NCBI RefSeq assembly: GCF_902832845.1
Contig: NZ_CADFDB010000001.1
Span: forward strand, 434,001-498,000
Length of the DNA stretch: 64,000 nucleotides
Direction of reading: 5' to 3'
Origin: Burkholderia metallica
Lineage (GTDB): Bacteria; Pseudomonadota; Gammaproteobacteria; Burkholderiales; Burkholderiaceae
How positions within the stretch are numbered: the stretch's first letter is position 1; every line of letters begins with the position of its first letter. The position numbers and the translations under genes are program-made. Of this stretch, positions 9,760 through 39,367 are shown one piece after another. The notes under the pieces were generated by a model that saw nothing but the letters and a program-made list of their open reading frames with translations, was not told the DNA's origin and searched no databases.

Positions 9760-10308
9760 ACGGGTATCGTCGATTGGCGAATCTTATATCGGAATTTGAC
9801 GATATGATTGAAAGCATTACTGGCTATAGGGGTGATAGGTGGGGACGGACAAAAAAGATCGCACTTGTAAGAAGGGGACGGAAATGCGCAAAAAAGACTG
9901 CACCCCGGATGTCACAATGTGAAAAATCGAAGTAACTGATTGATATTAATCTACTTTATTTCCCGCTCGGTTAGGTGGGCTTGGGAGTCAGTAGGGTGGG
10001 CGAAAGTCAGCGATCGAGTAAATTGATAAGTATGTCTAAGCTAATGTGTGCGCTAAGGCGATGTGACAGGGGAAAACCATATTCTTTCAAAATTATTTCA
10101 TGTTGAAGGGGGAAGTCAACTCAACGCGAGCAGGTTGCATCCCTCGATCGATGCCTTCGTCGACTGCGAGGTCAGGTTGATCGCCGCATGCGTTGCTGGA
10201 CGTGAAAACGACGCCCGGTCGATACCCAGTGTGTGGGACTTGGCGGGCTTCAAAGTCCATAGATGACAGGCGGATGGACCGCGGCTCCTGGATCGATCGA
10301 TTGTCGTA
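9760..10308. other. Intergenic stretch without convincing genes
   Basis: Moderate-GC sequence upstream of the ArsR gene and downstream of the terpene synthase. An imperfect direct repeat is visible: GGGGACGGACAAAAAAGATCGCA at about 9842-9864 and a variant with GGGGACGGA then AAAAAAGACTGCA at about 9877-9903. A 67-codon open frame at 10063-10266 has no homology I recognise and no good ribosome site, so it is not called. Confidence 0.5.
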
Positions 10309-11307
10309 TTACACGCGTGACAGATACGCTTCCTTCATTGATTCCGTATGGTTTTCCGGCAGGTAGCGTCCCGGCAGCGCGCGGTGCCATTCGTAGTTGC
10401 CGCGCATGATCCTTTCCATCATCGCAATATACCGATCCAGTCGCTCGCGCACTTCGGCGCCCATCCCCAGGCTCGCGCACCACGCGGGCACGCCGGCCTT
10501 CAAGGTGACGAAGTCCTGGCAAAACCGTGCGACCATCCGCTGCGACTCGGCGATGGCTGCGTCGCGTCTCATCCCATGTCCGTGCGTCAACTGAATGACG
10601 ATGTTGTTGCGCTCGCCCTCGCTCTCCTCGCGCTCCAGCGACACGACGTCGTTCACGATGCAGCACACGGCAAAGCACACGAATGCCATGTCTTCCAGAT
10701 GCCCCGGCCCGAGCAATGCGGACGGGAGTTCGATGTCGTTCCCGCGTTCGCCGAGATCGAGAAACATGTGGTACGCGTAGCTTCTGACCCGCTTCTGCAG
10801 GTAGACCTGCACGTCCGGCGCCCAGACGTCGGCCGCATGTTCTTCGGTTTCTTCCAGCAAGCGCTGGAAGTAATCCTCCCAGTCCCGCAGGCAGCGCGCA
10901 CGCCATTCGGCCGACATGCCGCCCTCCTTCGCCCGCGCCCAGATATCGAGCCACGCCGCCTCCGGGCCCGACTTCGGGATCCATGTATCGGGATCGCGCA
11001 TCATGCCGATCACGCGGTTCAGGACCGGCCGAACGCGGGAAAGATCGCCGTTGTTGCGAACGCAGAAATCGTCGAAAACGGCGACCCACATCAGCGTGTC
11101 GCAAATGATCCGGTTGTCCTCGAACGGGATATTTCCCCACATCCACGCGATCGCCACGGTCAGATCCGTTTTCATCAGGCTTTGCACCGCGCTTTCGTTT
11201 CCGGCAAGGCCTTTCTCGGCCAGCCATTGCTCCTGCACGGTCAGCAGTTCCGCAAGCTGCGGATGCAGGTTCGCGGAAAACGGGACATCGAAATCAACGA
11301 TGGGCAT
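10309..11307 (-). CDS. Class I terpene synthase (sesquiterpene synthase-like)
   Basis: 332 aa, the usual length of bacterial single-domain class I terpene cyclases. The metal-binding acidic motif is VAVFDDFCVRN (Asp79-Asp80, a reduced form of DDxxD/E), and the NSE triad is intact as NDVVSLERE (Asn219, Ser223, Glu227). A diphosphate-sensor Arg is plausible at Arg173, 46 residues before the triad, and the C-terminal RY pair is Arg314-Tyr315. The enzyme should ionise a linear prenyl diphosphate with Mg2+ and cyclise or quench the cation. AGGA precedes the ATG. It lies 66 bp downstream of a cis-prenyltransferase on the same strand, so its substrate may be a Z-configured prenyl diphosphate (inference). 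The product cannot be predicted. Confidence 0.88.
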   Translation of the reverse strand: MPIVDFDVPFSANLHPQLAELLTVQEQWLAEKGLAGNESAVQSLMKTDLTVAIAWMWGNIPFEDNRIICDTLMWVAVFDDFCVRNNGDLSRVRPVLNRVIGMMRDPDTWIPKSGPEAAWLDIWARAKEGGMSAEWRARCLRDWEDYFQRLLEETEEHAADVWAPDVQVYLQKRVRSYAYHMFLDLGERGNDIELPSALLGPGHLEDMAFVCFAVCCIVNDVVSLEREESEGERNNIVIQLTHGHGMRRDAAIAESQRMVARFCQDFVTLKAGVPAWCASLGMGAEVRERLDRYIAMMERIMRGNYEWHRALPGRYLPENHTESMKEAYLSRV

Positions 11308-11373
11308 ATGGGTTCCTGATTTATTTCTGAGAGAAATGACTCATCGACCATCGAAACGCCGACAGTCCATTTC

Positions 11374-12144
11374 CTAAAGCCCGAAACGGCGATGGCGAGA
11401 ATAAAAAAAGCGAATGGCGTCGTCGAAGTCCGCGCGCCCGAATTCAGGCCAGCACACCGGCGTGAAATACAGTTCGGAAAACGAGCTTTGCCACAGCATG
11501 AAGTTCGACAGCCGCTGTTCGCCTGACGTCCGGATGACGAGATCGGGGTCGGGTTGCCCAGCCGTGTAGAGGCGGCTCGCAATCAATTCGGGACTCAGGT
11601 CGGCGAGCAACTGGTCGAGCGATCCGGCAGCGGCGTGCTCGCTGATTAGCGCCCGGATCGCGCTTAGCAATTCGAGGCGGCCACTGTACGCAACCGCGAT
11701 GTTGACTTCGAGCCCCTGAACCTGCTCGGTGCTTCGCACGGCGTCTCCGATGCGCTCCGCGACGGTCGAGGGAAGTTTCGTCAGATCACCAATCACGCGC
11801 AGCCGCCACCGGCCGCTACGGGCCAGTTCGTCGAGTACCTTGACGATCACGGTCAACAGGCCGACCAGTTCCTCGGCGTTGCGTTTCAGGTTCTCGGTGG
11901 ACAGCGGCCATAGCGTCACCATAGGAATGGCCGCAGCTTCGCACCAGGACAGCAGCGCGTGAACGTTTCTTCCACCCGCTCGATAGCCGTCGATGGTTGG
12001 CAACCCGAGGCGATCCGCCCAGCGGCGGTTGCCGTCGAGAATGACCGCGAGATGCCGGAGTGGGACGCCTTCGCTGGCGGTCGGCGTTTCGGGCGTGCCG
12101 AACGAGCAGGCGTCGGGGGCCGACAGTGCCGCAGCTTGAGTCAT
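11374..12144 (-). CDS. Cis-prenyltransferase (UppS-like isoprenyl transferase), probably dedicated to terpene synthesis
   Basis: The ATG at 12144 is preferred over a TTG at 12162 because GAGGGAG lies at proper distance before it; this gives 256 aa. Motifs: ILDGNRRWA (35-43, catalytic Asp37; canonical enzymes have MDGNGRWA), GYRAGG (GHRAG in housekeeping UppS), LSTEN, and the C-terminal DPDLVIRTSGEQRLSNF with ELYF, which carries the diphosphate- and Mg-binding residues. The family condenses isopentenyl diphosphate in cis. The divergent motif residues and the location directly upstream of a terpene synthase, away from cdsA and other cell-wall genes, argue for a short-chain secondary enzyme making for example neryl or Z,Z-farnesyl diphosphate. 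That assignment is inferred. Confidence 0.88.
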   Translation of the reverse strand: MTQAAALSAPDACSFGTPETPTASEGVPLRHLAVILDGNRRWADRLGLPTIDGYRAGGRNVHALLSWCEAAAIPMVTLWPLSTENLKRNAEELVGLLTVIVKVLDELARSGRWRLRVIGDLTKLPSTVAERIGDAVRSTEQVQGLEVNIAVAYSGRLELLSAIRALISEHAAAGSLDQLLADLSPELIASRLYTAGQPDPDLVIRTSGEQRLSNFMLWQSSFSELYFTPVCWPEFGRADFDDAIRFFYSRHRRFGL

Positions 12145-12292
12145 CGCCACTCCCTCGGTCAAGAAGTCTGTGTCGACGATGAGAGATCGTTGCGTCGACT
12201 CGATGAAACCGACAATACGTAAACGAAAAGAACCTGCGGGGAGATAGTTTATGACTCGTATTATTCATAGTTGCCCGGATTTTTCAAGTCGA

Positions 12293-12327
12293 CAAAATCA
12301 ATATTTTGTTTTTAGATAAATTGATTT
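12293..12327. promoter_or_regulatory. AT-rich dyads upstream of the terpene operon
   Basis: CAAAAT-CAAT-ATTTTG at 12293-12308 is a perfect 6-bp inverted repeat. AAATCAAT (12295-12302) also pairs with ATTGATTT (12320-12327). They sit about 150 bp upstream of the cis-prenyltransferase start in an AT-rich segment (12190-12345) unlike the rest of the window, where the operon promoter is expected. Regulator unknown. Confidence 0.35.
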
Positions 12328-12441
12328 GAATGGTTTCAATAATGGAAATTGCGGTCGCGCGGGTTGCCGGCGCTCGGCGCCGTCCGTCAATGCGGCACCG
12401 ATGAATGCTGCGGGGTCGACGATCAAACGCAACGATGCAGT

Positions 12442-12592
12442 TCAGCCATCCAGCGTCTGCGCCGGCGTGTCGAGCTTCAGTTGATAGAACGCAACATCGA
12501 GCCAGCGCCCGAACTTGAAGCCCGCTTCCGCAATCGTGCCCGAGTGCACGAACCCCAGCAGCGTCGTATCCGTGCCGCGAAGCTGGGCAAGT
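12442..12592 (-). pseudogene. C-terminal remnant of a GNAT (phosphinothricin-type) acetyltransferase
   Basis: The minus strand encodes TLLGFVHSGTIAEAGFKFGR followed by WLDVAFYQLKLDTPAQTLDG and a stop. This is the characteristic C-terminus of phosphinothricin/methionine-sulfoximine type GNATs (…GF…G…..GFKFGRWLDV..…). The N-terminal two-thirds are missing and the fragment joins IS3 transposase sequence at about 12593. It is a dead fragment. Confidence 0.7.
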
Positions 12593-12763
12593 TCATCGCT
12601 TGTAGACCGGGCGCAGGCCTTGGCGCTGCAAACTACGTCGAACACGCTCAGCACTCACCGGGCAGCCTTGGGCGCGCAATTGCCGCACGATACGGGGGCG
12701 GCCATAGCTGCCGCGACTGGCCCGGTAGATGGCCGCCACTTCGACGTTCAGTTGTTGAAGCCC
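12593..12763 (-). mobile_element. IS3-family transposase OrfB fragment
   Basis: Translated on the minus strand, this segment reads LQQLNVEVAAIYRASRGSYG followed by RPRIVRQLRAQG…VSAERVRRSLQRQGLRPVYKR and a stop at 12593-12595. This is the N-terminal HTH_21 region of IS3-group OrfB transposases (SRGTYGxPRI … VYKRR). A TAA precedes it in frame, and the DDE catalytic core is absent. It is an insertion-sequence remnant beside the terpene operon. Confidence 0.75.
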
Positions 12764-13445
12764 TTAAAAACTGCTAATCGTGTCCATAGATTACGCTAAT
12801 GTAAGGCACGGCCGCGGCCCCGCGAGATAAGGCATTGCTGCCGTTCGCGCGTCTTTTCATGCGGTGCGTTTTGGCAACGCGCGCACGCACGGATGTCCGT
12901 TTATATTGCTAAGGAACCTTATCACGACGGCATGATTGCCTGTTCAAACCCGGGTTTCGCACAACGCGTGAAACGGGCTGTCGGCGCTGCAACGGTGTGG
13001 GCGGGAGTTGGCACGGGTCTTCGCAACACCGTGGTCGGTGACAACGTTAATTCGCAACCTGCAACCTCATGAATTCACGACGGTTTCGCTCTTCATTGCC
13101 GGTGTGAGGCGGCGGAGTGACATTTTTACTTCGCAAACGGTGACAACTTTAATTTGGTCTACGGTAGGGGAGGCGACGTTGGCCAGTCAAAAATAGCACT
13201 TGACGTTCACTTTTTGCGTCATATGCTTTCCACTGGATGCGAGTAAAAGGCGTGGAAATAAGCAATCAGTTTGTCGATGATTTATCGTATTGTTTCCGTT
13301 TTTTATGGGACATACGTCGCGACACTACCTGAGATTAAATCGGCAGCATGATTGTTTCGGAAATTCCACTTGGAAATCTCCGAAACTTCCCGAACGAGCG
13401 CGACCACCTCTCAGTTCGTTATTTTTCAACCTTTGGAGAGCCGAC
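12764..13445. other. Low-coding intergenic debris
   Basis: No convincing gene. The stretch holds three GTGACA-led repeats (listed separately) resembling multi-copy ends of an insertion sequence, and AT-rich DNA from 13180 that probably contains the promoter of the small secreted protein at 13446. Confidence 0.5.
13038..13159. repeat. Three GTGACA-led terminal-type repeats
   Basis: GTGACAACGTTAATTCGCAA (13038-13057), GTGACATTTTTACTTCGCAA (13117-13136) and GTGACAACTTTAATTTGGTC (13140-13159) are related and in the same orientation. Several copies of a 20-bp motif near one another is the organisation of IS21-type element ends; no transposase gene remains. Attribution to IS21 is inference. Confidence 0.4.
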
Positions 13446-13676
13446 ATGTCATCTATTGCCAAGATCCTCTTTTTGACCTTAATGGCCTGCCTTGTTTTTA
13501 ACGGAGAAGCTGGCGCCGCTCAAAAGTCTTTCTGCTATTTCCACCACAATTGCCCCGCTGACGGAAAGCTGCCGAAAGGTCAACCGCCGGAGCAATACAC
13601 CAAACAGCAGTGCAAGAACGGTGGAGGTAAGAGCTGGGGCGACGGCCCAACGAGCTGCGAAAACGTGAACAAATGA
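13446..13676 (+). CDS. Small cysteine-containing secreted protein
   Basis: The ATG at 13446 with GGAGAG eight bases upstream gives 76 aa. Residues 1-25 form a Sec signal peptide (…LTLMACLVFNGEAGA), leaving a mature peptide of about 50 aa with four cysteines (30, 36, 56, 71) that could form two disulfides, plus a Gly/Lys-rich middle and a basic C-terminus. I do not recognise the family. The frame extends upstream to 13290, but that part lacks a ribosome site and signal. It stands alone among gene remnants. It might be a small exported toxin, inhibitor or structural peptide; nothing in the sequence decides. Confidence 0.65.
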   Translation: MSSIAKILFLTLMACLVFNGEAGAAQKSFCYFHHNCPADGKLPKGQPPEQYTKQQCKNGGGKSWGDGPTSCENVNK

Positions 13677-13898
13677 GAAGATCGGAGCCCAGCGTCAATT
13701 GAACAATGCGAGGGGTAGTTCTCGCTGCCGGATCTCCCTCTTGATTTTGTTGCGTTCTACCGGGGAAGACGGATCTCGGGCGGCAAGGTCTGCCGCTCGC
13801 CCAAATCAGAGACCGTGCGATATCGATCCCAACGGGTTCGTCTCGGCAGTCCTCAAAAACGCAATGCCACTAATAAGAATTAGCGGCATTGAATGTGC

Positions 13899-13928
13899 AT
13901 CATAAAAACCCGGCCAAAGCCGGGCTCA
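13899..13928 (-). terminator. Rho-independent terminator
   Basis: On the minus strand the sequence is AGCCCGGCTTTGGCCGGGTTTTTATG: CCCGGC and GCCGGG arms with a short loop followed by a T-run. It lies just downstream of the degenerate toxin-antitoxin gene at 13957-14210, which it would have terminated. Confidence 0.75.
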
Positions 13929-13956
13929 CGTCGCTGTGTGATGCGGCGGCCCACGC

Positions 13957-14210
13957 CTACTTGACCGTCGCCAACGGCAAAAACAACGCCAACGGGTCAT
14001 GCGTGAGGGACTGAAAACCGAAGTGGCCATAGAGAACGCCGCGGCACCCTCGTCCTTCGCGTCGACGGTCAAGGCGACGGCCGGGATTTCCGAGCTGGCC
14101 ACGCGCCGCAGGGCGTTGACCGACATGGTGCGCCCCTGGATCTCGGCGGCCCGGCGGATCACCGCCAGCACATCGGTCTCGACGCGTGCTTCAAAGCGAG
14201 TAGTAGCCAT
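13957..14210 (-). pseudogene. Collapsed TacA-TacT (DUF1778/GNAT) toxin-antitoxin remnant
   Basis: The frame begins with a perfect AGGAGGT ribosome site and MATTRFEARVETDVLAVIRR, then AAEIQGRTMSV, the ribbon-helix-helix N-terminus of DUF1778 antitoxins (TacA). It then jumps to IPAVALTVDAKDEGAAAF, which belongs to the C-terminal part of the partner GNAT toxin (TacT). A frameshift near 14034 follows; the +1 frame gives YGHFGFQSLTHDPLALFLPL then ATVK and a stop at 13957-13959. The antitoxin C-terminus and most of the toxin are therefore deleted. A Rho-independent terminator follows. No working toxin or antitoxin remains, although the DNA-binding N-terminus could still be expressed. Confidence 0.75.
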
Positions 14211-14395
14211 AGGGTGTTACCTCCTGGTGCTACTGTACGGAAAATTGCCGGGTGCACTCGCGAGGATGGAACCGGCCATTGTCAAATGCGTACATCCCGT
14301 GATTCGGCCGCCGGGGAGCGGCGCCTACGGCAGCACCCTCTGATAAGGGCAGGCGGTCGATGAGCATATCGATGCCGCCTGCGGATGCGGTTGCT

Positions 14396-15829
14396 TCATG
14401 ACGCGTCATTCGCGACAATGCGCCCCTGCCCGATGAGCGCCGTCATCGCCATCATCAGTTCGAATGCGCGGTCCGCGTTCACCGGTTGATTCTGCGTACC
14501 GAACCTCAGCACGATGACACCGTCCACCAGCGCCGCGATGAGTGTCGCGCGCGCGAGGCATTCGCGCGCGGTCGCCGACGAATCGATCTCCCGGATGAGA
14601 TCCGTGCAGACCACCCGGTACGCCGCGTAGCCCCTTCCCACGATTTCACGCGTGATATCCGAATGTTGAGCCAGAGCGAACATCTCGATCCAGAGTTGTT
14701 GCACCTCGGGAACACAGACTTCCTCGAAGACGTCTGCGGCGATGTCGCACAGGCGCTCCAGCGCCGACTTTCCGCTCGGCTTGCCGAGCTCCGCGTAGTG
14801 GTCCAGATAAGCTCGTCCCACCGCGTCAAGTGTCGAGCGCAGCAGGTCGTCATGGGTCGGGAAATAGTTCTGGAGCACCGAGGGCAGGATGCCGAGTTCT
14901 CTCGCCACCCGTGCCAGGGTGAAGTTTGCATAGCCTTCTGTCGCCAGAAGGTTGGCGGCGGTGGAGACGATCTCGTTGATCTTGAGTTCCCTGCGCTTGC
15001 CCTGGGCCGTCGGCCGGTAATGGAAGGCGTCCTGGGTCGACTGGTGCGCCCGGAGATCCAGTAGCCCGGGCTGGAGGTCCCCATTCGATCCGAAGACGCT
15101 GATCGGGGTATGGCTGCCGTCGTGAAGGACACGCGGACGACGATGTGGCGCTTCGCTCTCGAGCATCTGTGGCGACGCGCTCATCACCATTTTTACGGCT
15201 CGCTTGGCGACGCGGATCAACTCCACATAGTCTTTTCCGGGGTAATCGCCGTGGGACGCGAATATCGTCATGCCGTCCATCTGCGCGACGATCACGGCGG
15301 CACGCACCTGGCATGCGTCACTGGACAACGTCGGGTGAAGCTCCGACAGCAATTTCTCGAAGATGCCTCGATACCGCGCCTGCATGTCGCGCAGCATTTC
15401 CGCGACATAGGCTTCATGCGATGCGAAGGCCCAGATCTCGACCATGAACTTCGGTAGATCGGTCTCGTTGATGTTCTGGAAAATGCGATTGATCAGCGCG
15501 GAGCAACGTTGCGCAGCACCCATGCCCGGGCGGCTCGCGATCGCTTTGTAGTCCTCCATGACCTGGCTCAGGTAGGCCGGGAGCGCGGTGCGCAGCAACT
15601 CTTCCGTCGTTCGGAAGTAGTACTGGAGATTGCCATGGGTGATTCCCATGCGATCCGCTACACGGCGGATCGCGAACCCGGCATAGCCGTCCTCCTGAAA
15701 GACCTGGCGCGCGGTATCGATGATCTCTCGAATGCGCTGTTCGCGATTGCGCCGTGACGACGGCCGCGCGGCGGACTTGGCGCCCTCCGAATGGTCAGGG
15801 GTTTCTTCCTTGATCGCGCTGTTTTGCAC
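14396..15829 (-). CDS. Double-domain TetR family regulator (two TetR repressors in one chain)
   Basis: 477 aa, more than twice the usual 190-220 aa for TetR proteins. The start is a GTG with GGGAG seven bases upstream. The first TetR unit (about 25-215) has the HTH GFAIRRVADRMGITHGNLQYYF (51-72). The second (about 278-470) has ANFTLARVARELGILPSVLQ followed by NYF (301-323). Each HTH is followed by a helical ligand-binding-like domain; a 60-residue linker (220-280) rich in Pro, His and Arg joins them. A single chain would carry two DNA-binding heads, so it may bind as a pseudo-dimer. The frame is uninterrupted and both HTHs look intact. The target is unknown; it lies divergent from the truncated FAD oxidase at 16624. 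Confidence 0.88.
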   Translation of the reverse strand: MQNSAIKEETPDHSEGAKSAARPSSRRNREQRIREIIDTARQVFQEDGYAGFAIRRVADRMGITHGNLQYYFRTTEELLRTALPAYLSQVMEDYKAIASRPGMGAAQRCSALINRIFQNINETDLPKFMVEIWAFASHEAYVAEMLRDMQARYRGIFEKLLSELHPTLSSDACQVRAAVIVAQMDGMTIFASHGDYPGKDYVELIRVAKRAVKMVMSASPQMLESEAPHRRPRVLHDGSHTPISVFGSNGDLQPGLLDLRAHQSTQDAFHYRPTAQGKRRELKINEIVSTAANLLATEGYANFTLARVARELGILPSVLQNYFPTHDDLLRSTLDAVGRAYLDHYAELGKPSGKSALERLCDIAADVFEEVCVPEVQQLWIEMFALAQHSDITREIVGRGYAAYRVVCTDLIREIDSSATARECLARATLIAALVDGVIVLRFGTQNQPVNADRAFELMMAMTALIGQGRIVANDAS

Positions 15830-15865
15830 GTTGACGCTCCCATGGCTAATACAAGGTTTCTGTAA

Positions 15866-15878
15866 ATTATAGGCCTAT
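15866..15878 (-). promoter_or_regulatory. Promoter -10 with overlapping palindrome for the double TetR gene
   Basis: On the minus strand TATAAT (15871-15866) fits a -10 element 37 bp upstream of the GTG start. It overlaps the perfect 10-bp palindrome ATAGGCCTAT (15869-15878), a plausible autoregulatory operator. No good -35 is evident. Confidence 0.4.
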
Positions 15879-16623
15879 CCGACGGAAGGGGAAAAATGCC
15901 GCTTCTTTCCCTCCATGCTTTTGTGCGCGAGCAATGACTGGCTGAGTGCGCAACGCGCCCCTTACGTTTTTTCACTCCAGTGCATGGCGGCGTGCTGCCC
16001 GCGGCAACCTTGCGCCCCGGAACATCTTTATTGGCCCATCGTGCAATTCCGCGCCTTGCGGCATGCGAATTCGAGTCGGTTCGACATCGTTTTCCTCGTG
16101 CCCGGTCGGTGTTTTCCCTAATTTTTTCGCGCTTGAGTGTAGGCCGACGCAACGTTAATATTAGGCCGTCATAACGTACTTTAAGGGCCGACGATACGTC
16201 TCTTGGTGATCGATTCAGGCTCCGGGGCGAGGTGATGGATTTCATTCGTTGCAGAGCGGATCTGCATGCGAAAGGCGTCCCGGAGAAGTGCGAAACGCGT
16301 TCCCGGGCGGGTAGCGAACGGCAGAAAGGCGCAGGTTCTCCTTCGCTTGGACGTGCGAGCCGGCTTCAACGGATGTGCCGCGCACCATCGTCGGCGGCCG
16401 TACTCCCATCAAACCGTCGGGTGGTCTGGAGTCGAAAGACCACCCACTGGATGCGACCGGCATCGGAACGCGATGACCTCGTCACGCAGCTGCCCGGCAA
16501 CGCCGGTGTGCGTCAGGTGCAGCGTGCGCGCGCTGCGATCCAGGAAAACGGCGACGCGATGCAGCGCATGGAAGAGGCGGCAGTGGCCGTCCACATTTTG
16601 AGCAAGGATTGACGGAGTCTGAA
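15879..16623. other. Intergenic region upstream of the FAD oxidase remnant
   Basis: No credible gene. A 126-codon open frame at 16232-16612 has no recognisable homology. The stretch holds AT-rich DNA at 16130-16190, likely promoter sequence, and a strong hairpin at 16419-16445. Confidence 0.45.
16419..16445. repeat. Strong hairpin upstream of the FAD oxidase
   Basis: GGGTGGTCT (16419-16427) and AGACCACCC (16437-16445) are perfect 9-bp arms with a nine-base loop. No T-tract follows on either strand. It could be an RNA structure in a leader or an operator; it is 178 bp upstream of the ATG at 16624. Confidence 0.35.
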
Positions 16624-17700
16624 ATGAGTACGGCTAACGATACGAAGCAGGAAAAGCCAGATAAGCGTGCGGGAATGACGCGGCGCAATTTCGTGAAAGG
16701 TGCGGCAGCCGCGGCCGTTGTCGTGCCTGCCGTGGTGGCGATGCAGGATGCACGCACGGAACCCGTGGAGGACGGCAAGGAGCGAGCCGACCTCGAAAAA
16801 TATCGGGCGCTGGGCGGATGGGTTGAAAAGCCCGATGACCTGCAGCCCGCGCTCGAGGGCGACGTCAGCGCGGATGTGGTGATTGTCGGCGCCGGTTTCG
16901 CGGGCCTTTCCGCGGCAGTGGAACTCGCCCGGCAAGGCGCGAAAGTGGTCGTGATCGAGCGCGAGTTTCCCGGCTTTGGCGCGAGCGGGCGCAACGCGGG
17001 CTACCTGGCAGGCGCCATGGGGCTCGAATACGACCTGATGCTTCGCGATATCAGCAAGGAGCAGGCGACGCAGATCGTCCGGTATTACGACGCCGCCGTC
17101 GGCTTCGTCGAAGGCAAGCTCAAGGAGCACGATATCGATTGCGAGTACGTGCAGTCCGGATGGATCCGTGCGGGCGTGCATCCGTCGCAGGAGCAGAAGA
17201 TCCGCGACGAGATGCGGATCGGCGCCGAGCTCGGCCACAAGTCGCAATTTCTGGATCAGGCCCAAATGCGCGCGCGCGGAATTCCCCCCGCGTTTCTCTT
17301 TGGCGAATACACACCGACCGGCGGCACGCTCCACCCGGGCAAATACGTGATGGGGCTGCGGCGTGCCGCGCTGCGGGCCGGCGTGAAGCTGTACGAGAAC
17401 ACGCCGCTGCTGTCTTACACCGAAGGCCCGGTCATCCAGGTGAAGACCCCGCGCGGCAGCGCGAGCGCCCCGGTGCTGCTGTTTGCTACCAATGCCTACA
17501 CCCCGCAGCTCGGTTTGCTCGCAAACAAGGTGGTGCCGTTGCGGATCTCCGCCATCGAGACCGAGCCGCTGTCCGACGCGCAACTGGCGTCGCTGGGGTG
17601 GTCACGGCGCGAAGGCATCGTCACCGCTCACTACAGCATGGAGAGCTTCCGCCTGACGGCACGCAACACGATCATCTCGACCGTCAAGCGTATCCACTAC
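16624..17700 (+). pseudogene. 3'-truncated Tat-exported FAD-dependent oxidoreductase (DadA/PuuB-like)
   Basis: The protein starts at ATG 16624 (GGAG upstream) with a Tat signal (TRRNFVKGAAAAAVVVPAVV, 19-38) and a dinucleotide-binding fold VVIVGAGFAGLSAAVELARQ with the E of VVVIERE. The DAO-type FAD oxidase homology (SGRNAGYL, PTGGTLHPGKYVMGL, LFATNAYTP) continues to about residue 355 (TARNTIISTVKRIHY). After about 17700 the family-specific C-terminal third is missing, including the final FAD-binding segment normally around residues 380-450. The frame stays open to 20664 only because it runs antisense through the molybdenum hydroxylase gene. The gene is therefore a broken 5' part, unlikely to give active enzyme. 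Confidence 0.75.
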
Positions 17701-17740
17701 GTGTTCGTGCAGCGCGCGGTTCGTACTGCCGACACAGCGG

Positions 17741-17761
17741 AAAACGCCGGCTGCGCCGGCA
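17741..17761 (-). terminator. Probable Rho-independent terminator of the iorAB-like operon
   Basis: On the minus strand TGCCGGCGCAGCCGGCGTTTTCC: perfect GCCGGC arms, a three-base loop and a short T-run. It lies 140 bp beyond the stop of the large molybdopterin subunit. Confidence 0.55.
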
Positions 17762-17901
17762 TCAGAAAGACAACGGATCCGGCGACGGGGCAAGCAAAAC
17801 GACGCGGATCGAAAGAAGCGCGTATTTCGCTGGCGCAGCTTCGCGCCCGGCCAGACGCCGTGCGACGAGCGGCGCTGCCCGCGTCGCCGCGGGACGCCCG
17901 C

Positions 17902-20391
17902 TTACGTCACCGTGCCGTTCTTCAGCTTGTCGATACACGGAATCCCCGCGCGCCGCTTCGGCCGCAGGAATTTCGGCACCGCGGGCGGCTGCCCGACAGC
18001 CGCCGTGCTGTGCTCGACCTTCGGCTTGAGCGCCGACGCCTTCGCCTTGCGCGGAATCCGGCAACCGCCGGCCGGGAGGTCGGCGTACGGATCGTCTTCC
18101 GCGGCCGCGGCGGCCGGCAGCGCCGGCGCGGTCGACGCGACCGCCATCGGTGCGAACGGCAGCGCACGCATCCGTTCGCCGGTCAGCACGAACGCGCCGT
18201 TGGCGACGGCCGGCGCGATCGGCGGCACGCCGGCTTCGCTCAACCCGGTCGGATGCGCATCAGACGGAACGAAGAACACGTCCACCGGTGCCGCCTCCTG
18301 CATCCGCACCGGCGAGTAGTCGGCGAAACCGGCGTTGCGGACCGCGCCATGCTCGACGTCGATCGCGAAACCCGGCTTCGTCGTCGCGAGGCCGAACAGC
18401 GCACCGCCCTGAATCTGGGCTTCCGCGCCGGTCGGGTTCACGATGCGGCCGGCATACACGCCGGCCGTCACGCGGTGCACGCGCGGTTGCTGCGCTTCGA
18501 TCGACACTTCCGTCACATACGCGACGACCGTGCCGGCGGTTTCGTGCATCGCGACGCCCCACGCGTGCCCGGCAGGCAGCGTGCGCGTGCCGTAGCCCGA
18601 CTTGTCGACGGCCAGGGCGAGCGCGTCGCGATGGTGCGCGTGCTCGGGACCGGACAGGCGCGCCATCCGGTAGGCGACCGGGTCCTGGCGCGCCGAATGC
18701 GCGAGCTCGTCGACGAGCGTTTCCATCACGAACGCCGTATGGGTATTGCCGCCCGAGCGCCACGACTGAACCGGCACGTCGACGTCCGTCTGATGGACGG
18801 ACACCTGCATCGGGAAACCGTACGGGCTGTTCGCCACCCCTTCGGTCAGGTCGGGATCGGTGCCGCTTTTGCGAATGGTGGTGCGCTCGAGCGGCGACCC
18901 CTTCAGCACCGACTGACCGACGACGACGTGCTGCCAGTCCCGCACCGCGCCGCTGCCGTCGACGCCGATGTCGACGCGATGCAGCACCATCGGGCGGTAA
19001 TAGCCGCCGCGCAGATCGTCTTCGCGCGTCCAGATCGTCTTGACCGGGCCCAGATGGCCGGCCGCCAGGTAGGCGGCGGACACGCGGGCGGCTTCGACCA
19101 CGTAGTCCGACGTCGGCGTCGAGCGCCGGCCGTAGTCGCCGCCGGACGTCATCGTGAAGATCTGCACCTTCGACGGCGCGACGCCCAGCGCCTTGGCAAC
19201 CGCTGCGCGATCGGTCGTCTGCATCGCCGAACCGCCCCAGATCTTGATGCCGCACGCGCAGCTCGCCGGGCCGACATCGACCGTGCAACTGAGCGGTTCC
19301 ATCGCGGCGTGCGCGAGATACGGAAATTCGTAGTCCTTCCGGATTCGCGTTGCCGCCGGCGGCGCGCTGCCGGCGTCGGCCGTGCGCACCACGGTCCCCG
19401 GCGTGCCGGCGAGCTGCTTGTACGCCTGCATCTGTTCGGCGGACGTGACGGTCGAGCCGACGTCCTTCCACGTGACCTTCAGCGCATCGCGGCCAAGCCT
19501 GGCCGGCCAGTAGCCGTTCGCGATCACGGCCACGCCGGTGCCGCCGCGAGCGGTCGGAATCTCGACGACCTCGACGACTCCCTTGACCGCCCGCGCCGCG
19601 GCCGCGTTGTAGCTCGCGACCTGTCCGCCGAAGCGCGGCGGCCGCGCAACGACGGCCACCATCATGTCGGGCAGGCTCCAGTCCATTCCATACTTGAGCG
19701 TGCCGTCGAGCATCGCGCGCGAATCGACGCGCGGCGTCGGCTTGCCGATGATGCGGAACTGATCGGGCGACTTCAGCGGCACGTGCTGCGGCACGGGCAT
19801 CGCCATCGCGTCGGGTGCCAGTTCACCGTAGGTCGCACGATGGCTGCCCGACGTCACGACGCCGTTCGCGGTGCGGCACGTGGCGGGATCGACGTTCCAG
19901 CGCCGGGCCGCCGCGGCGACGAGCATCGCGCGTGCCGATGCGCCGAGTTCGCGGTATTGCGTAAACGAATGGTTGACCGACGTCGAGCCGCCCGTCATCT
20001 GGATGCCGGTCACCGGGTCCCTGTACGGCTCGCCGGCCGGCGCGAGCACGGGGCGCACGTTGCGCCAGTCCGCATCCAGTTCGTCGGCCAGCGCCATCGG
20101 CAGCGCGGTGCTGACGCCCTGGCCGGACTCGGTGCGGTTGACGGCAACGGTGACGGTGTTGTCCGGCGAGATGATCAGGAATGCTTGCGGTGGAGACGCC
20201 TGCGGCGCGTTGCCCGTTTGCGCGGCGGTGCGCGTCGGCGCGATACCGAGCGCCAGGCAGCCGCTCGCCGCCATCGTGAGCTTCAGAAAGCCGCGCCGGC
20301 CGGGCATCGGCGCATCGGGCCCGGTGACGGGCGACGCGTCGCGGCGGGGGGCGTCGGCGCCAGCCGGGCGCCCGAAAGTGCGGATACGCAT
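17902..20391 (-). CDS. Xanthine dehydrogenase family molybdopterin-binding subunit (IorB-like, Tat-exported)
   Basis: 829 aa from the ATG at 20391, which has GGGGAG nine bases upstream. A Tat-like signal PGRRGFLKLTMAASGCLALG lies near residues 31-50. The body matches the single-chain molybdopterin subunits of isoquinoline 1-oxidoreductase/aldehyde dehydrogenase type: AFLIISPDNTVTVAVNRTESGQGVST, GGSTSVNHSF, MEPLSCTVDV (substrate/Mo region), and GGALFGLAT late. These enzymes hydroxylate N-heterocycles or oxidise aldehydes using a Mo-cytosine dinucleotide cofactor, passing electrons to the 2Fe-2S partner encoded 22 bp upstream. The last about 65 residues are an unusual Lys/Arg/Pro-rich tail. There is no cytochrome or Mo-insertion chaperone gene next to it, so both must come from elsewhere. 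The substrate is unknown. Confidence 0.9.
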   Translation of the reverse strand: MRIRTFGRPAGADAPRRDASPVTGPDAPMPGRRGFLKLTMAASGCLALGIAPTRTAAQTGNAPQASPPQAFLIISPDNTVTVAVNRTESGQGVSTALPMALADELDADWRNVRPVLAPAGEPYRDPVTGIQMTGGSTSVNHSFTQYRELGASARAMLVAAAARRWNVDPATCRTANGVVTSGSHRATYGELAPDAMAMPVPQHVPLKSPDQFRIIGKPTPRVDSRAMLDGTLKYGMDWSLPDMMVAVVARPPRFGGQVASYNAAAARAVKGVVEVVEIPTARGGTGVAVIANGYWPARLGRDALKVTWKDVGSTVTSAEQMQAYKQLAGTPGTVVRTADAGSAPPAATRIRKDYEFPYLAHAAMEPLSCTVDVGPASCACGIKIWGGSAMQTTDRAAVAKALGVAPSKVQIFTMTSGGDYGRRSTPTSDYVVEAARVSAAYLAAGHLGPVKTIWTREDDLRGGYYRPMVLHRVDIGVDGSGAVRDWQHVVVGQSVLKGSPLERTTIRKSGTDPDLTEGVANSPYGFPMQVSVHQTDVDVPVQSWRSGGNTHTAFVMETLVDELAHSARQDPVAYRMARLSGPEHAHHRDALALAVDKSGYGTRTLPAGHAWGVAMHETAGTVVAYVTEVSIEAQQPRVHRVTAGVYAGRIVNPTGAEAQIQGGALFGLATTKPGFAIDVEHGAVRNAGFADYSPVRMQEAAPVDVFFVPSDAHPTGLSEAGVPPIAPAVANGAFVLTGERMRALPFAPMAVASTAPALPAAAAAEDDPYADLPAGGCRIPRKAKASALKPKVEHSTAAVGQPPAVPKFLRPKRRAGIPCIDKLKNGTVT

Positions 20392-20413
20392 GATCACAGT
20401 CTCCCCGGCAGGC

Positions 20414-20872
20414 TCAGGCAAGCGCGTGAGCCGCATCGTGAATCGCGGCACGGATGCGCTGATAGGTCGCGCAACGGCACAGGTTGCCGGCCATCGCGCT
20501 GTCGATGTCGGCATCGGTCGGTGCCTTGTTGCTGCGCAGCAGGCCGGCCGCGCTCATCATCTGGCCGCTCTGGCAGTAGCCGCACTGCGCGACGTCGTGC
20601 CGGATCCAGGCATCGAGGACGGCCTTGCCGACCGCATCGTCGGCGAGATGTTCGGACGTCGTGACGTGCGCACTCCCGACCGTCGACAGCGCCAGCGTGC
20701 AGCTATGCACGGGCCGGCCGTCGACGTGCACGGTACAGGCGCCGCAGTCGCCGGCGTCGCAGCCGAACTTGGTGCCGGTCAGACCGAGGTTGTCGCGCAG
20801 CACCCAGAGCACCGGCGTCGACGGATCGGCATCGACCTCCGCCGACCGGTTGTTGATGTTCAACGTCACCAT
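20414..20872 (-). CDS. (2Fe-2S)-binding small subunit (IorA-like)
   Basis: 152 aa from the ATG at 20872, with GGGAG ahead of it. Two 2Fe-2S clusters are encoded: plant-ferredoxin type [17 protein letters not shown]…HSC (about 37-60), and the alpha-helical type [10 protein letters not shown] … NLCRC (about 98-136). This is the small subunit of molybdenum hydroxylases, shuttling electrons from the Mo site of the next gene product. The two genes are separated by 22 bp and certainly co-transcribed. Confidence 0.93.
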
Positions 20873-21606
20873 CTTGATGTTCTCCCGTGGACACCTCGTT
20901 GTCGTTCCGCAGGTCCGGACCGCGGCACGGCGAATGTGAACCAATTAAAGCAGATTCGAGAATAAATCAGGATCCGGGGAATCCGCTTTTTTCCATTCTT
21001 AATAATTCACGTGCTTTAGTTAAAACATGAAATTTACAACCCGCATGCGAATCGCCGGATGTTCCAGAAAGATTGTTGAGTTTTGACAAAAACTTGCCGG
21101 TTCGATGGAAAACGTTTGCGAGTCATGCCTATATTTGTCTCGCGATCACGCCGGAGGCTTGACGATCGAATATCGGGAATCAGCCAACCTGTATGCGACT
21201 CATTCGCAACCGGGTTGAATCGGGGACTGGAATTCAGTGTTTGTTTAACAGGGATGGGAGACAGGCGGGAAATGGAGTACAGCGGGAGTACAGCGTTCGG
21301 CTCGTTTGATCTGTATACGCACAGATGCCATCGATGCCGATCGACGCAACAGTTTCTCCATGAAACAGCCATATTTTAAAAAGTGGAAAATTTACCGCTC
21401 AGAGGGGATAAAAGTAAAAAGTGCCGAATAAATGATTCCGGTTGATTGATTCTTGATGGTTGCCAATCGAGTCATCTGCATTGATTTGATGGCGGGGCGG
21501 CATTTATCTAAAAATATCGAATAACGCATTCCGGTAATTCCTTTCTGCGTTTTTTAACTGCGGAAGGGGCTCGGGTCGTCGATTCTCTTTATGGGAAGGT
21601 GTGATT
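20873..21606. other. AT-rich divergent promoter region
   Basis: About 730 bp of much lower GC than its surroundings separates the iorAB-like operon from the giant autotransporter. Two overlapping 98- and 112-codon frames (21083-21379 plus, 21034-21372 minus) lack homology and good ribosome sites and are not called. The length and AT content suggest extensive regulatory sequence or silencer (H-NS-like) binding for the autotransporter. Confidence 0.5.
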
Positions 21607-24600
21607 ATGCGTATGCGCATGGGTTCGAATAAAAAGCGCGCGGAAGCACGTCCGAAACTCCTCGTCCCGACCGGCATGCTGGTCGCACTCGTCAGTGCGG
21701 GGATCGTTCCCGCCGACGCATTGGCCGCCTGCACCGGCTCGCCCACTGTCACCTGTACCGGCACCACCAACAGCTATGCGAACGGCACGAATAATCTCAA
21801 CGTGACGGTCGCATCGGGCGCGACCGTCTCGGTGGTGCCGCTGTTCGGCGGCACGGCGCTGTCGCTCACGGGCAGCGGCGTCACGCTGACCAACAACGGG
21901 ACCATCGACCCGTCGCAGGCCGGGCTGAGCATCGTTTCGAACGGCACGGTCGTCGGCAATATCACGTCCGCGAGCACGGTGAACGTCACGAACAACGGCG
22001 TGATGATGGGCTCGACCAGTTCGCTGTTCGGCAACGGGCCGGCATTGACCGTCTACAACGGCACGGGCGGCACGACGAACATCACGAACACCGGCACGAT
22101 CGGCACGACGGGCATCGGCTTCACCGCCGGTCCGACCACGCAGGTGGTCACCGCATCGGGCGGCGCGCAGGTCAACTTCACGAACGCGAGCGGCGGGGCG
22201 ATCAACGGCTCGGTCGTGCTTGCACCGAGCACCTTGGTGGGCACCGGCAATACCTTCACCAATGCCGGAAGCATTACCGGCAACGTATCGCTGGGCGCGG
22301 GCCTCGGCACGTCGAACACGTTCAACGCGCAGACCGGGTCGTCGGTCGGGCTCGGCGTCGATGCCGGGCTGGGCGGCAACAACACGCTGAATCTGCAGCA
22401 GAACACGTCCGGCGGGGCGGCGAACGGCGCCATCGCGGTCGACACGTTCGGCAATTTCACGCATCTCGCGGTCCAGGGCGGCACGTGGAACATCACGGGC
22501 GCGTCGACCGCGTCGGACGCGTCGCTCACCGGCGGTACCGCGATCATCAACAACAGCGGCTCGCTGGGCACCGGGACGATCGCAGTGAGCGGCGGCCGGC
22601 TGGAGGCCGGGTCCGCCGGCGTGAACCTCCAGAACAACGTGGCGCTCGGTGCGGCGCTGACGGTCGACGGCGCAACCGGGTTCGGGATCTCGGGCGCGAT
22701 TTCGGGCGGCGGCGCACTGAATGCGGCCGGCACCGGCACGCTGGCGCTGAACGGTGCGAATTCCTTCTCGGGCGGAACGAATCTGACGGGCGGCGGCGGG
22801 CTGCTCGTCGGTACCGGCCTGGCGCTCGGGTCCGGCGCGCTGAACGTCACGGGCGCGGGCGGGACGCTCGCGACGAGCGTCGGCGGCACGCTGCTCGGCA
22901 ACGCGGTGAACATCGACAGTGGCGTCACGCTGGGCCTCAACAGTTCGGCGAACCTGGGCCTGGGCGGCGTGATCGGCGGCAACGGCGGTCTGGCGCAAAC
23001 CGGCAGCGGTACGACGACGCTGCTCGGCCTGAACACATTTACGGGCGGCATGAACCTGAGCGGCGGCGGACTCGTCGCCGGCAACGGCCAGGCGCTCGGG
23101 ACCGGCGCACTGCATGTGTCCGGCGCGGGCGGCTCGCTGGCGGTGAACGCCGGCGGCACGCTGCTCGGCAACGCGGTGAACCTCGATGCGGGTGCGACGC
23201 TCGGCCTGAACGGCGCGGCCGGCATGAGCCTGGGTGGCGTGATCGGCGGCAACGGCGGTCTGGCGCAAACCGGCAGCGGCACGACGACGCTGCTCGGCGC
23301 GAACACGTTCTCGGGCGGTACGGCGCTGAGCGGCGGCGGACTCGTCGCCGGCAACGGCAGCGCACTCGGGACTGGCGCGCTGCATGTGTCGGGCACGGGC
23401 GGCGCGCTGGCGGTGAACGCCGACGGCACGCTGCTCGGCAATGCGGTGAATCTCGATGCGGGCGCGACGCTCGGCCTGAACGGTACGGCCGGCATGAGCC
23501 TGGGCGGTGTGATCTCGGGCAACGGCGGCCTCGCGCAAACCGGCACGGGTACGACGACGCTGCTCGGTGTGAACGCGTTCACGGGCGGCACGACGCTCGG
23601 TGCCGGCGGCCTGATTGCGGGCAACGGGCACGCACTGGGCAGCGGCGCACTGAACGTCGTCGGCGCGGGCGGCACGCTCGCCACGAACGTTGCCGGCACC
23701 GTGCTCGGCAATGCGGTGAACCTCGGTGCAGGCGCGACGCTCGGCCTGAACGGCGCGGCCGATCTTGGCCTGGGCGGCACGATCTCGGGCGCGGGCGGCC
23801 TCGCGCTCGGCGGCACCGGCGCGACGACGCTGTCCGGTGCGAACACGTTCAGCGGCGGCGCGAGCCTCACGGGCGGCGGCAGCCTGATCGTCGACGGCAA
23901 CTCGGCGCTCGGCGTGGGCGGTGCGTTGAACGTGAGCGGCCTCGGCGGCTCGCTGCACGCGGGTGCGGCAGGCGCGACACTCGTGAATTCGATCAACCTG
24001 AACGGCACGTCGCTGACGCTGGACGGGGCGAACGATCTCGGCCTGGGCGGGGTGATCGGCGGCACCGGCGGTCTCGTGCTGAACGGCACGGGCACGACCA
24101 CGCTGTCCGGCGCGAACACCTTCGGCGGCGGCACGACGCTGAGCGCCGGCACGCTGCTCGCCGGCAACAATCTGGCGCTGGGTACGGGCGCGCTCAATGT
24201 CGCCGGCGCGGGCGGCGCACTCGGCGCGAGCGCGAGCGGCGTCGCGTTGAACAATGCGGTCAATCTCGGCACGGGTGCGACGCTCGCGCTCACCGGTTCG
24301 AACGATCTTGGCCTGGGCGGCGTGATCGCCGGTGACGGCGGCCTCGCGCAAGTCGGCTCGGGCATCACGACGCTGCTGGGGGCGAACACGTTCACGGGCG
24401 GTACGACGCTGAGCGGCGGCGGCATTCTCGCCGGCAACGGCGCCGCACTGGGCACGGGTGCGCTGAACGTGACCGGTGCGGGCGGCTCGCTCGGCACGAC
24501 CGTCGGCGGCACGGTGCTCGGCAATGCGATCCAGCTCGGCGCGGGCGCGGCACTGACGGTTGGCGGTGCGAACGATCTCGGGCTGGGCGGGATCATTTCC

Positions 24601-27600
24601 GGCGCCGGCGGCCTGTCCGTGAACGGCCCGGGCACGACGACGCTCACCGCGGCCGAGACGTTCACCGGCGGCACCACGATCGGCAGCGGCACGCTCGCGA
24701 TCGGCGCGGGCGGCAGCCTCGCCGCGTCGAGCCCCGTCAACCTGGCGGGCGCCGGTGCGCAGTTCAACATCGCCGGGGCGACCACGCCGCAGTCGATCGG
24801 CACGCTGTCGGGTGTCGCGGGTTCGACGATCGATCTCGGTTCGAACCACCTGACGCTGGCAGGCAGCGGTAGCGGCGTCTTCGCGGGCAACATCGGCGGG
24901 GCGGGCGGGCTCACGCTTTCCGGCACCGGCTCGCAGGCACTCACCGGCAACAACACGTACGCGGGCGGCACGGCGCTGACGGGCGGCGACCTGATCGTCG
25001 GCAGCGGCGCGGCGCTTGGCCTCGGCACACTCGACGTCAACGGCTCGGCGTCGCTCGGCGCCAGCGTGCCGGGCGTGACGATCGGCAACGCGGTCAATCT
25101 CGGCGCCGGCGTCACGCTCGGGTTGAACGGCGCGAACGATCTCGGCCTGAGCGGCACGATCGCCGGCAACGGCGGTCTCGCGCAAACGGGCACGGGCACG
25201 GGCACGACGACGCTCACCGGCACGAACACGTACACGGGCGGCACGACGCTGAGTGGCGGCGGGCTCATCGCGGGCAACGGCAGCGCACTCGGCGCGGGCG
25301 CGCTGAACGTGACCGGCGCGGGCGGCACGCTCGCCACGAACGTCGCCGGCACCGTGCTCGGCAATGCGGTGAACCTCGGCGCCGGCGCGACGCTGGGGCT
25401 GAACGGTTCGGCGGACCTGAGCCTCGGCGGGGTGCTGTCGGGTGGCGGCGGTCTGGCGCAAACCGGCACCGGCACGACGACGCTGCTCGGCGCGAACACG
25501 TACACGGGCGGTACGACGCTCAGCGGCGGCGGACTCATCGCCGGCAACGGCAGCGCACTCGGCACCGGCGCGCTGAACGTAACGGGCGCGGGCGGCTCGC
25601 TCGGCACGAGCGTCGGCGGCACCGTGCTCGGCAATGCGGTGAATCTGGGCGCGGGCGCGACGCTGACGGTCGGTGGTGCGAACAACCTCGGCCTCGGCGG
25701 CGCGATTTCGGGCGGCGGCAATCTGTCGGTGACCGGCCCGTCGATCACGACGCTCACGGGAGCGGGCCGCTACACCGGCAACACGACGATCGGCAACGGC
25801 AGCACGCTGGCGGTCGGCGCGGGCGGCAGCCTGTCGGGCGGCAGCTTGTTCGACCTGACTGGCGTGGGCGCGACGCTCGACCTGAGCGCGGCGACGTCGC
25901 CGCAGACGACGGGCGGGCTGGTCGGCACGGCCGGCTCGGCCGTGAACCTCGGCGGCAATACGCTGACGCTCGGCGGCGCCGGCAACGGCACGTTCGGCGG
26001 CACGATCGGCGGGGCGGGCGGGCTGACGCTGGCCGGCACCGGCACGGAAACGCTGATTGGTGCGAACACGTACACGGGCGGCACGACGATCAACAGCGGC
26101 ACGCTGGCGATCGGCGCGGGCGGCAGCCTCGCGGCGGGCGGCGCAGTGAATCTGGGCGGCGCCGGCGCGGCGTTCGACCTGAGCGGCGCGGCGCTGCCGC
26201 AGACGATCGGCACGCTGTCGGGCGTGGCCGGTTCGACGGTGAATCTCGGCGGCAACGGCCTGACGCTGGGCGGCGCAGGCAGCGGCACGTTCGGCGGCAC
26301 GATCGCCGGGGCCGGCGGCAGCCTGACGCTGTCGGGCACGGGTACCGAAACGCTGAATGGTGCGAACAGCTACACGGGCGGCACGAGCCTGACCGGCGGC
26401 GGCACGCTGCTCGCCGGCAACGGTGCGGCACTCGGCACGGGCGCGCTGAACATCGGCGGTGCAGGCGGCACGCTGGCCGCGAGCGTTGCCGGCACGACGC
26501 TGAACAACGCGGTGAATCTCGGCACCGGTTCGGCACTGACGCTCGGCGGCACGAACGACCTGGGCCTCGGCGGCATCATCGGCGGCGGCGGCAGTCTCGC
26601 GCAAACCGGCAGCGGAACGACCGCGCTCACCGGCGCGAACACGTTCACGGGCGGCACGACGCTGAGCGCGGGCGGCCTGTCGGTCGGCAGCAACACGGCG
26701 CTCGGCACGGGCACGCTCAACGTGACCGGCAGCGGCGGCGCGCTCAGCGCGAGCACGGCGAACCTCCTGCTGGCGAACGCCGTCGATCTGGGCATCGGCT
26801 CGACGCTGAATCTCGGCGGTGCATTCGACTTCGGGCTGAACGGCATGATTTCCGGTGCAGGCGGCGTGGTGCAGTCCGGCTCGGGCACGACCACGCTCGG
26901 CGGCGCGAATACCTACGGCGGCGGCACGACGCTGAGCAGCGGCGGACTGAGCGTGGGCAGCAATTCGGCGCTGGGCACCGGCGCACTGAACGTGACCGGC
27001 AACGGCACGCTGAACGCGAGCGTGAGCGGCACGACGCTCGGCAACGCAGTGAACCTCGGCGCGGGTGCGACGCTCGGGCTGAACGGTTCGAACGATCTTG
27101 GCCTGAGCGGTACGATTTCCGGTAGCGGCGCCCTGGCGCAGACCGGCGCGGGCACCACGACGCTCACCGGCACGAACACCTATGACGGCGGCACCACGTT
27201 GAGCGGTGGCGGGCTCATCGCCGGCAACGGCAGCGCACTCGGTTCCGGCGCGCTGAACGTCACGGGCGCGGGCGGCTCGCTCGGCACGAGCGTCGGCGGC
27301 ACGACGCTCGGCAATACGGTGAATCTCGGCGCGGGTTCGACGCTGACGGTTGGCGGTGCGAACGATCTCGGGCTGGGCGGCGGGATCTCGGGCAGCGGCG
27401 GTCTGTCGGTCAGCGGCCCGTCGACGACCACGCTCACGGGCGTGAACACCTATACCGGCAACACGACGATCGGCGGCGGCAGCACGCTGGCGGTCGGCGC
27501 GGGCGGCAGCCTGTCGTCGGGCAGCGCGCTCGACCTCGCCGGCACGGGCGCGACGCTCGACATCAGCGCGGCGACCACGCCGCAGACGAGCGGCATGCTG

Positions 27601-34317: not shown

Positions 34318-34323
34318 GGGGGC

Positions 34324-34355
34324 GGCCGCTCGCGACGGGGTTGTCGTGAGCGGCC
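34324..34355 (+). terminator. Stem-loop after the autotransporter
   Basis: GGCCGCTCGCGAC and GTCGTGAGCGGCC pair over 13 positions (one G-T type mismatch) around a six-base loop, 7 bp after the stop. There is no long T-run, so termination may be partial. Confidence 0.6.
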
Positions 34356-34597
34356 GATTGTCGATCGATGTTTCTATGGGAAGTGTTCGTTTCGCATGAC
34401 AGAAGTTTCGTGATGCAGATCAATTAGCATGAAGTGCATCGCGTGACGTTTGGTATTCCGTCGCACCGACTGGTCAAGCCTGTTTAACGCTTTGCATATC
34501 GAGCAATCCGCACACGATTTACGTCGCCTTCGGGCGGCAGGTCCAGGCGTGATCGCTCGAGCTGTTCCGCGGTTGTCCAACCGAAATGGGGTAATTC

Positions 34598-38848: not shown

Positions 38849-38860
38849 ACGACGTGGGTA

Positions 38861-38890
38861 CCCGGCCGCCGCAGCCAATGGGCGGCCGGG
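38861..38890 (+). terminator. Perfect 10-bp stem-loop after the repeat protein
   Basis: CCCGGCCGCC (38861-38870) and GGCGGCCGGG (38881-38890) flank a ten-base loop, 12 bp beyond the stop codon. No T-tract follows. Confidence 0.55.
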
Positions 38891-38916
38891 AACATTCAGG
38901 CACGTCAGAACGACAC

Positions 38917-39189: not shown

Positions 39190-39272
39190 TAGATCCTGAC
39201 TGACTCAGGTTGGCTTGGGGGCATGTCAACGCCCGCATTCGCCGATGGGTCAAGCCGGTAGCGCAGGTCTCG

Positions 39273-39291: not shown

Positions 39292-39367
39292 AGAAAAGAA
39301 AAAACATCCGCATTGCCGCGCAGCATCCGTTCGATACCGCATCGATTCGTTGACGTCACACGATGCT

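Follow-up and report, generated by a model that had tools for sequence, protein, structure and literature searches.

A Paired cis-Prenyltransferase and Class I Terpene Synthase in Burkholderia metallica: A Candidate Bacterial Route to cis-Derived Terpenes

Introduction

In the genome of Burkholderia metallica (7.55 Mb), a stretch of 64,000 nucleotides (contig NZ_CADFDB010000001.1, here C1, positions 434001–498000; hereafter the window) carries on its minus strand a two-gene operon, in which the gene of a short-chain-type cis-prenyltransferase (CPT1, 256 aa, window positions 11374..12144) is followed, after a gap of 66 bp (11308..11373), by that of a class I terpene synthase (TS, type 1, 332 aa, 10309..11307). 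We propose, with a probability of roughly 0.7 and on comparative grounds, that CPT1 makes a short Z-prenyl diphosphate that is cyclized by the TS. By the likely route, CPT1 would join isopentenyl diphosphate (IPP) and geranyl diphosphate (GPP) to (2Z,6E)-farnesyl diphosphate (FPP), which the TS would then ionize and subsequently cyclize; for the chain made by CPT1, the comparisons favor C15, with C20–C25 being possible.

A preliminary description of this DNA had placed a CPT and a TS on one strand, 66 bp apart, as coordinates and family scores now confirm, and had suggested that the pair makes and cyclizes a Z-prenyl diphosphate. The latter idea gains good support from comparison, namely from the position of CPT1 outside the UppS clade in a genome with its own uppS, from the recurrent adjacency of the two genes, and from fusions, whereas the inference drawn from the reduced Asp motif of the TS appears weak. 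Judging from the family scores and the recurrence of the gene pair, a chance origin of the genes can be taken as excluded.

Recurrence of the Gene Pair

Adjacency or fusion of a CPT and a TS is recurrent. A second pair lies in the same genome outside the window (contig C1, ca. 310.3–312.2 kb; loci L002 and L004), with a CPT (CPT2) that is 71 % identical to CPT1 and a TS that is 19 % identical to the window TS and bears the motif DDGLCSLH (type 2). Among 65 Burkholderia genomes, eight hold a CPT of this kind (nine copies, E ≤ 1e-50), and a same-strand TS adjoins the CPT in 9/9 copies, eight of these pairs being of type 2. The gap between CPT and TS amounts to 52–54 bp in the four type 2 pairs, of eight, for which it was measurable; median ratios of nonsynonymous to synonymous substitution rates (dN/dS) are 0.23 for the CPT (6/8 copies) and 0.15 for the TS (4/8 copies), and purifying selection acts on these pairs. 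Beyond CPT2, a major-facilitator-like transporter open reading frame (ORF) was recognized by eye.

Both controls were negative. No TS was found at the best 80 CPT loci of the genome_contigs collection (0/80; 78 with actinobacterial titles, two titled 'uncultured bacterium'; flanks reaching 10 kb where the contig allowed), and no CPT was found at 60 TS loci with ca. 2 kb flanks (0/60; 63 actinomycete TS ORFs), a non-random set picked by hand from the listed rows with geosmin-synthase-like long frames skipped.

Outside Burkholderia, a protein search retrieved relatives of CPT1 from Paraburkholderia, Labrys, Rhizobium, Dyella, Inquilinus, and Pseudomonas. A CPT on a Rhizobium etli plasmid (66.8 % identical) is followed by a TS that is annotated as hypothetical, and further CPT–TS pairs reside on plasmids of Streptomyces JCM17656, S. 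clavuligerus (L114), and Streptomyces YIM 121038. The TS-adjacent CPT of S. clavuligerus matches PDB entry 8WU7 over all 272 aa with 594 bits, an entry titled 'Structure of a cis-Geranylfarnesyl Diphosphate Synthase from Streptomyces clavuligerus'. Fusions with the TS portion placed first were found in Streptomyces YIM 121038 (L115) and in one of the 199 Streptomyces genomes searched (G923), and a TS-like gene adjoins the CPT in a further Streptomyces genome (G972).

Within 398 Burkholderiaceae genomes, CPT matches at E ≤ 1e-58 were confined to Burkholderia. Three of these genomes besides the own one seemed to hold the CPT at ca. 45 % identity and were considered as a third Pseudomonadota pair group; this candidate was rejected, as the proteins belong to the UppS clade and the 1.5 kb around their genes revealed no TS.

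The fusion frames span L115:8001–9632 and L230:1171–3165, the former adjoining an annotated polyprenyl synthetase gene. A relative of the fusion TS domain (L232, genome G1007) has a polyprenyl-synthetase-like ORF upstream, as seen by eye, and no CPT within 1.5 kb. On a plasmid of Streptomyces NBC_01456 (L118), a CPT has an annotated polyprenyl synthetase and another isoprenyl transferase as neighbors, and no TS was found in the region.

The cis-Prenyltransferase

CPT1 (PRENYLTRANSFERASE) is a member of PF01255 (E = 9.4e-68; 228.5 bits versus a gathering score of 27), as are two further proteins of this genome, which holds uppS on contig C5 and the two other PF01255 genes on C1. Its ATG start is the one used by most aligned relatives; an alternative start at TTG (12162) would extend the protein to 262 aa. 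Among PDB sequences, CPT1 scores 213 bits with Rv1086, the Z,E-FPP synthase of Mycobacterium tuberculosis (2VFW, 2VG1), 154 bits with E. coli UppS, and 150 bits with tomato NDPS1. Its predicted structure (mean predicted local distance difference test score, pLDDT, 82.6) likewise retrieves Rv1086 first (46 % identity, root-mean-square deviation 1.9–2.0) and 8WU7 second (40 %), with UppS entries at 33–39 % among the matches listed.

In a tree of 53 CPTs, in which the actinobacterial rows stand for 20 of the 80 loci, the UppS clade separates from the other CPTs at 100/100. CPT1 falls outside it and the genome has a separate UppS, so that CPT1 does not qualify as the housekeeping enzyme. It sits instead within a clade of 14 Pseudomonadota CPTs (support 98/92), with an Inquilinus row (P0034) just outside, and this clade joins 8WU7, the JCM17656 CPT, P0034, and P0042 at 89/95; the group adjacent to it is the actinobacterial one, which contains Rv1086. 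CPT1 thus groups with Rv1086 rather than with UppS, in a neighboring group outside that of Rv1086 itself.

In E. coli numbering, the catalytic residues Asp26, Asn74, Arg77, Arg194, and Glu213 are all conserved in CPT1, and His43 is replaced by Tyr. The latter belongs to GYRAG (residues 53–57; 11974..11988, minus strand), which, together with the GNRRW of DGNRRW (residues 37–42; 12019..12036, minus strand), had been noted before and is indeed present. That description contrasted these motifs with GNGRW and GHRAG of housekeeping UppS; the UppS of this genome does have DGNGRW, but GHTRG in place of GHRAG. GNRRW is common to the aligned non-UppS CPTs and occurs in three rows of the UppS clade too, and is therefore not diagnostic of chain length. 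At the position of Ala69 of E. coli UppS, a chain-length site, Ala or Thr is found in the UppS clade, Leu or Met in the 20 actinobacterial rows, Ala in 8WU7, and Pro in all 14 rows of the CPT1 clade (WPLSTEN in CPT1, residues 79–85; 11890..11910, minus strand). By this comparison, a chain length cannot be read from the residue at this position.

Rv1086 is the best match of CPT1 in both sequence and structure and shares with it GNRRW, Tyr at the His43 site, and Leu rather than Trp after EN. It differs in having Leu instead of the Pro of CPT1 at the Ala69 site and in its place in the neighboring group of the tree; none of the 80 control loci from genome_contigs has a TS. Rv1086 converts GPP to Z,E-FPP and, in the study concerned, NPP (neryl diphosphate) to Z,Z-FPP (PMC10303002).

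The Terpene Synthase

The window TS is a class I terpene synthase by family score (PF19086, E = 2e-29), fold, and NSE triad. Its best PDB sequence match is avermitilol synthase (116 bits), and its predicted structure (mean pLDDT 73.9) matches the folds of pentalenene and epi-isozizaene synthases, with pentalenene synthase at the top of the Foldseek list; pentalenene and avermitilol synthases are also the closest characterized TSs by sequence. The NCBIfam score of 134 is far below the cut-off of 675 for the pentalenene synthase equivalog. As described previously, the NSE triad is complete (NDVVSLERE, residues 219–227, with N219, S223, and E227; 10627..10653, minus strand). In an alignment of 13 TSs, N219, D220, and S223 do not vary and E227 hardly does, and Arg173 and the Arg314-Tyr315 pair are retained in the window TS as well.

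The Asp motif is reduced, as had also been observed: in DDFCVRN (residues 79–85; 11053..11073, minus strand), DD at 79–80 is followed by five residues without an acid, so that a full DDxxD/E or DDxxxD/E motif is lacking. A search with 2056 scored candidates from a collection of 5.8 billion proteins yielded four proteins at E ≤ 1e-3, one being the window TS itself and the others coming from Burkholderia sp. AU38729 and AU15512 (83 % and 79 % identical) plus one at 55 %. All three homologues (P0002–P0004) keep DD[FY]CVRN, and a scan of the genome_contigs collection returned no TS relatives. Judging from these searches, the window TS belongs to a TS family that is rare and whose motif is conserved.

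In a tree of 96 TS rows, the CPT-paired TSs require six label changes, at least four of them forced by well-supported branches (P0002–P0004, labeled paired here, form a clade with the window TS and leave this count unchanged). The window TS groups with L008, an unpaired Burkholderia TS, at 100/95, and lies near the fusion and S. clavuligerus TSs at lower support (95/77, then 94/84). The TS of the second pair groups with the Rhizobium TS at 100/100, in a clade distant from the window TS; therefore, one CPT clade is combined with quite different cyclases. Such pairing favors a shared Z substrate, the use of which would have been acquired more than once.

Does the reduced Asp motif itself betray the substrate? 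The third acidic residue is missing in 4/7 CPT-paired lineages versus 8/63 unpaired actinomycete TS ORFs (Fisher one-sided p = 0.014), a count over non-randomly chosen lineages in which the L116 row is aligned doubtfully and the fusion L230 (NDQVH) stands outside. As a signature of Z-substrate TSs, the motif was rejected: 3/7 paired lineages keep the third acid, and the unpaired Burkholderia TSs L008, L018, and L020 lack it too. As a clue to a Z substrate, it is suggestive only.

Chain Length and Alternative Explanations

Several observations weigh against a short Z-prenyl diphosphate cyclized by the TS. On the side of the CPT, a C15 product is not secure because the wider CPT group includes 8WU7, a C25 enzyme by its PDB title; the grouping with 8WU7 and the JCM17656 CPT is itself supported at only 89/95, and Pro at the Ala69 site of CPT1 matches neither Rv1086 (Leu) nor 8WU7 (Ala). 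On the side of the TS, the nearest cyclases by sequence are of the pentalenene and avermitilol type, for which (2E,6E)-FPP is the known substrate. L008, the nearest TS outside the four type 1 proteins, has no CPT in flanks of 1.4–1.5 kb, and P0002–P0004 are known as proteins alone. Furthermore, 27/29 Streptomyces CPT loci (best matches) have no TS within 1.5 kb, the other two having one fused or adjacent, and 4/8 plasmid CPT regions have no TS while 4/8 have one alongside, these eight having been examined out of 59 CPT-bearing records with many near-copies (a ninth region, with a fusion, came from the TS search).

Because of 8WU7, a longer Z chain (C20–C25) is the main alternative, which we consider rather unlikely but the most serious. 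CPT1 would then add at least one Z unit to FPP or geranylgeranyl diphosphate to give a C20–C25 Z-prenyl diphosphate, from which the TS would make a di- or sesterterpene. The match of 8WU7 to the TS-adjacent CPT of L114 supports this possibility, as does the presence, in some Streptomyces loci, of a trans-polyprenyl synthetase beside the CPT or TS (annotated, or by eye in L232). CPT1, however, is nearer to Rv1086 than to 8WU7 (46 % versus 40 %), and among the ORFs at 4–20 kb of the window, three proteins of which were family-searched, neither a trans-prenyl synthase nor a P450 was recognized by eye.

Considerably less probable is the formation of neryl diphosphate (NPP) by CPT1 from dimethylallyl diphosphate and IPP, with the TS being a monoterpene synthase in the manner known from tomato trichomes. 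Plant clusters of CPTs and terpene synthases (TPSs) act in this way (PMC4364678), and the PDB matches of CPT1 include NDPS1 of tomato; the similarity of CPT1 to NDPS1 is nevertheless lower than that to Rv1086 (150 versus 213 bits). Rv1086, moreover, is cited as GPP-only for its Z,E-FPP activity, though the same paper then shows the use of NPP (PMC10303002).

Two further explanations are improbable. If the TS used ordinary (2E,6E)-FPP and CPT1, as a prenol or lipid-carrier enzyme, were functionally separate from it and adjacent by chance, the top scores of the TS with pentalenene and avermitilol synthases would fit, but not the 9/9 adjacency in Burkholderia with two unrelated TS types, nor the fusions, set against controls of 0/80 and 0/60. 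A TS that has lost cyclization and only hydrolyzes or isomerizes its substrate could account for the missing third acidic residue, but the window TS retains DD and the NSE triad as well as Arg173 and the Arg314-Tyr315 pair, reduced motifs also occur in 8/63 unpaired TS ORFs, and a DDXXX motif is named for plant microbial-type TSs (PMC7192455).

Relation to Known Systems and Implications

Bacterial short-product CPTs are already known, as is one TS-linked CPT with a solved structure, the cis-geranylfarnesyl diphosphate synthase of S. clavuligerus (8WU7, 8YLZ), which was reportedly the subject of a 2024 paper. This enzyme belongs to the same wider CPT group as CPT1 and is followed by a TS that also lacks the third acidic residue (DDLIGS). 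The two pairs differ in sequence (40 % identity for the CPTs, 30 % for the TSs) and in the P450 that lies beside the S. clavuligerus pair.

The TPSs of the tomato chromosome 8 cluster are of another lineage than the window TS. The cluster (NDPS1/CPT2 with TPS19, TPS20, and TPS21) resembles the window pair in that its CPTs lie together with TPSs to which they supply Z substrates (PMC4364678); it differs in that the enzymes are from a plant and are encoded by separate genes in a larger cluster. By analogy, the CPT-plus-TPS logic of tomato appears in bacteria with other cyclases. In the chimeric prenyltransferase–terpene synthases (PTTS) of fungi, the prenyltransferase partner is a trans-prenyltransferase. 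The L115 and L230 fusions are like these PTTS in that a single protein contains both a prenyltransferase and a terpene synthase (PMC8307374), and unlike them in that the partner is a cis-prenyltransferase placed after the TS.

A literature search, with most subscription journals outside its scope, found no paper on bacterial CPT–TS pairs, Burkholderia pairs, or TS–CPT fusions. More tentatively than for the window pair itself, and at somewhat less than even odds, we suggest that these systems represent a bacterial mix-and-match Z-terpene module: related short-chain CPTs would have been captured repeatedly, adjacent or fused, by unrelated class I cyclases, so that cis-derived scaffolds would be encoded outside plants, the window operon making one of them. 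Bacterial terpene synthases are usually assayed with all-E substrates. Should CPT-linked TSs depend on a Z substrate, their products would escape such assays, and CPT adjacency would then serve as a simple guide to the substrate with which a TS ought to be tested. In one mined set, a Burkholderia pseudomallei TS is entered as ND in every substrate column (PMC7192455). The TS–CPT fusions, additionally, represent a natural and possibly channeled enzyme for study.

Genomic Setting

The operon lies in a variable region of ca. 30 kb (9839..39819), as its flanks (9838 and 39820) are much closer in related records, being separated by 123 bp in B. cenocepacia (L133) and by ca. 5.7 kb in B. arboris (L134). 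The ca. 30 kb difference from L133 may reflect either an insertion here or a deletion there. The G+C content falls to 0.59 and 0.55 at 10–14 kb, versus 0.66–0.69 at the positions preceding it. In a plasmid collection that also contains second chromosomes, the records nearest to the window, compared over 14 kb, are from B. arboris (91.8 % identity, 66 % coverage) and B. cenocepacia (90.4 % and 48 %), so that the genome is probably one of the Burkholderia cepacia complex.

Neighboring genes include a tandem TetR-domain regulator of 477 aa (14396–15829), to which the family libraries assign two TetR-type domains, and a flavin adenine dinucleotide-dependent oxidoreductase-like frame (16609–17800) that, by eye, apparently loses normal sequence after ca. 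370 residues. Farther on, a repeat-rich ORF of 4238 aa (21601–34317) is autotransporter-like in look, and a plus-strand ORF of 1416 aa with Gly/Val-rich repeats (34598–38848) coincides with a strong GC skew of 0.28–0.29 at 34–38 kb.
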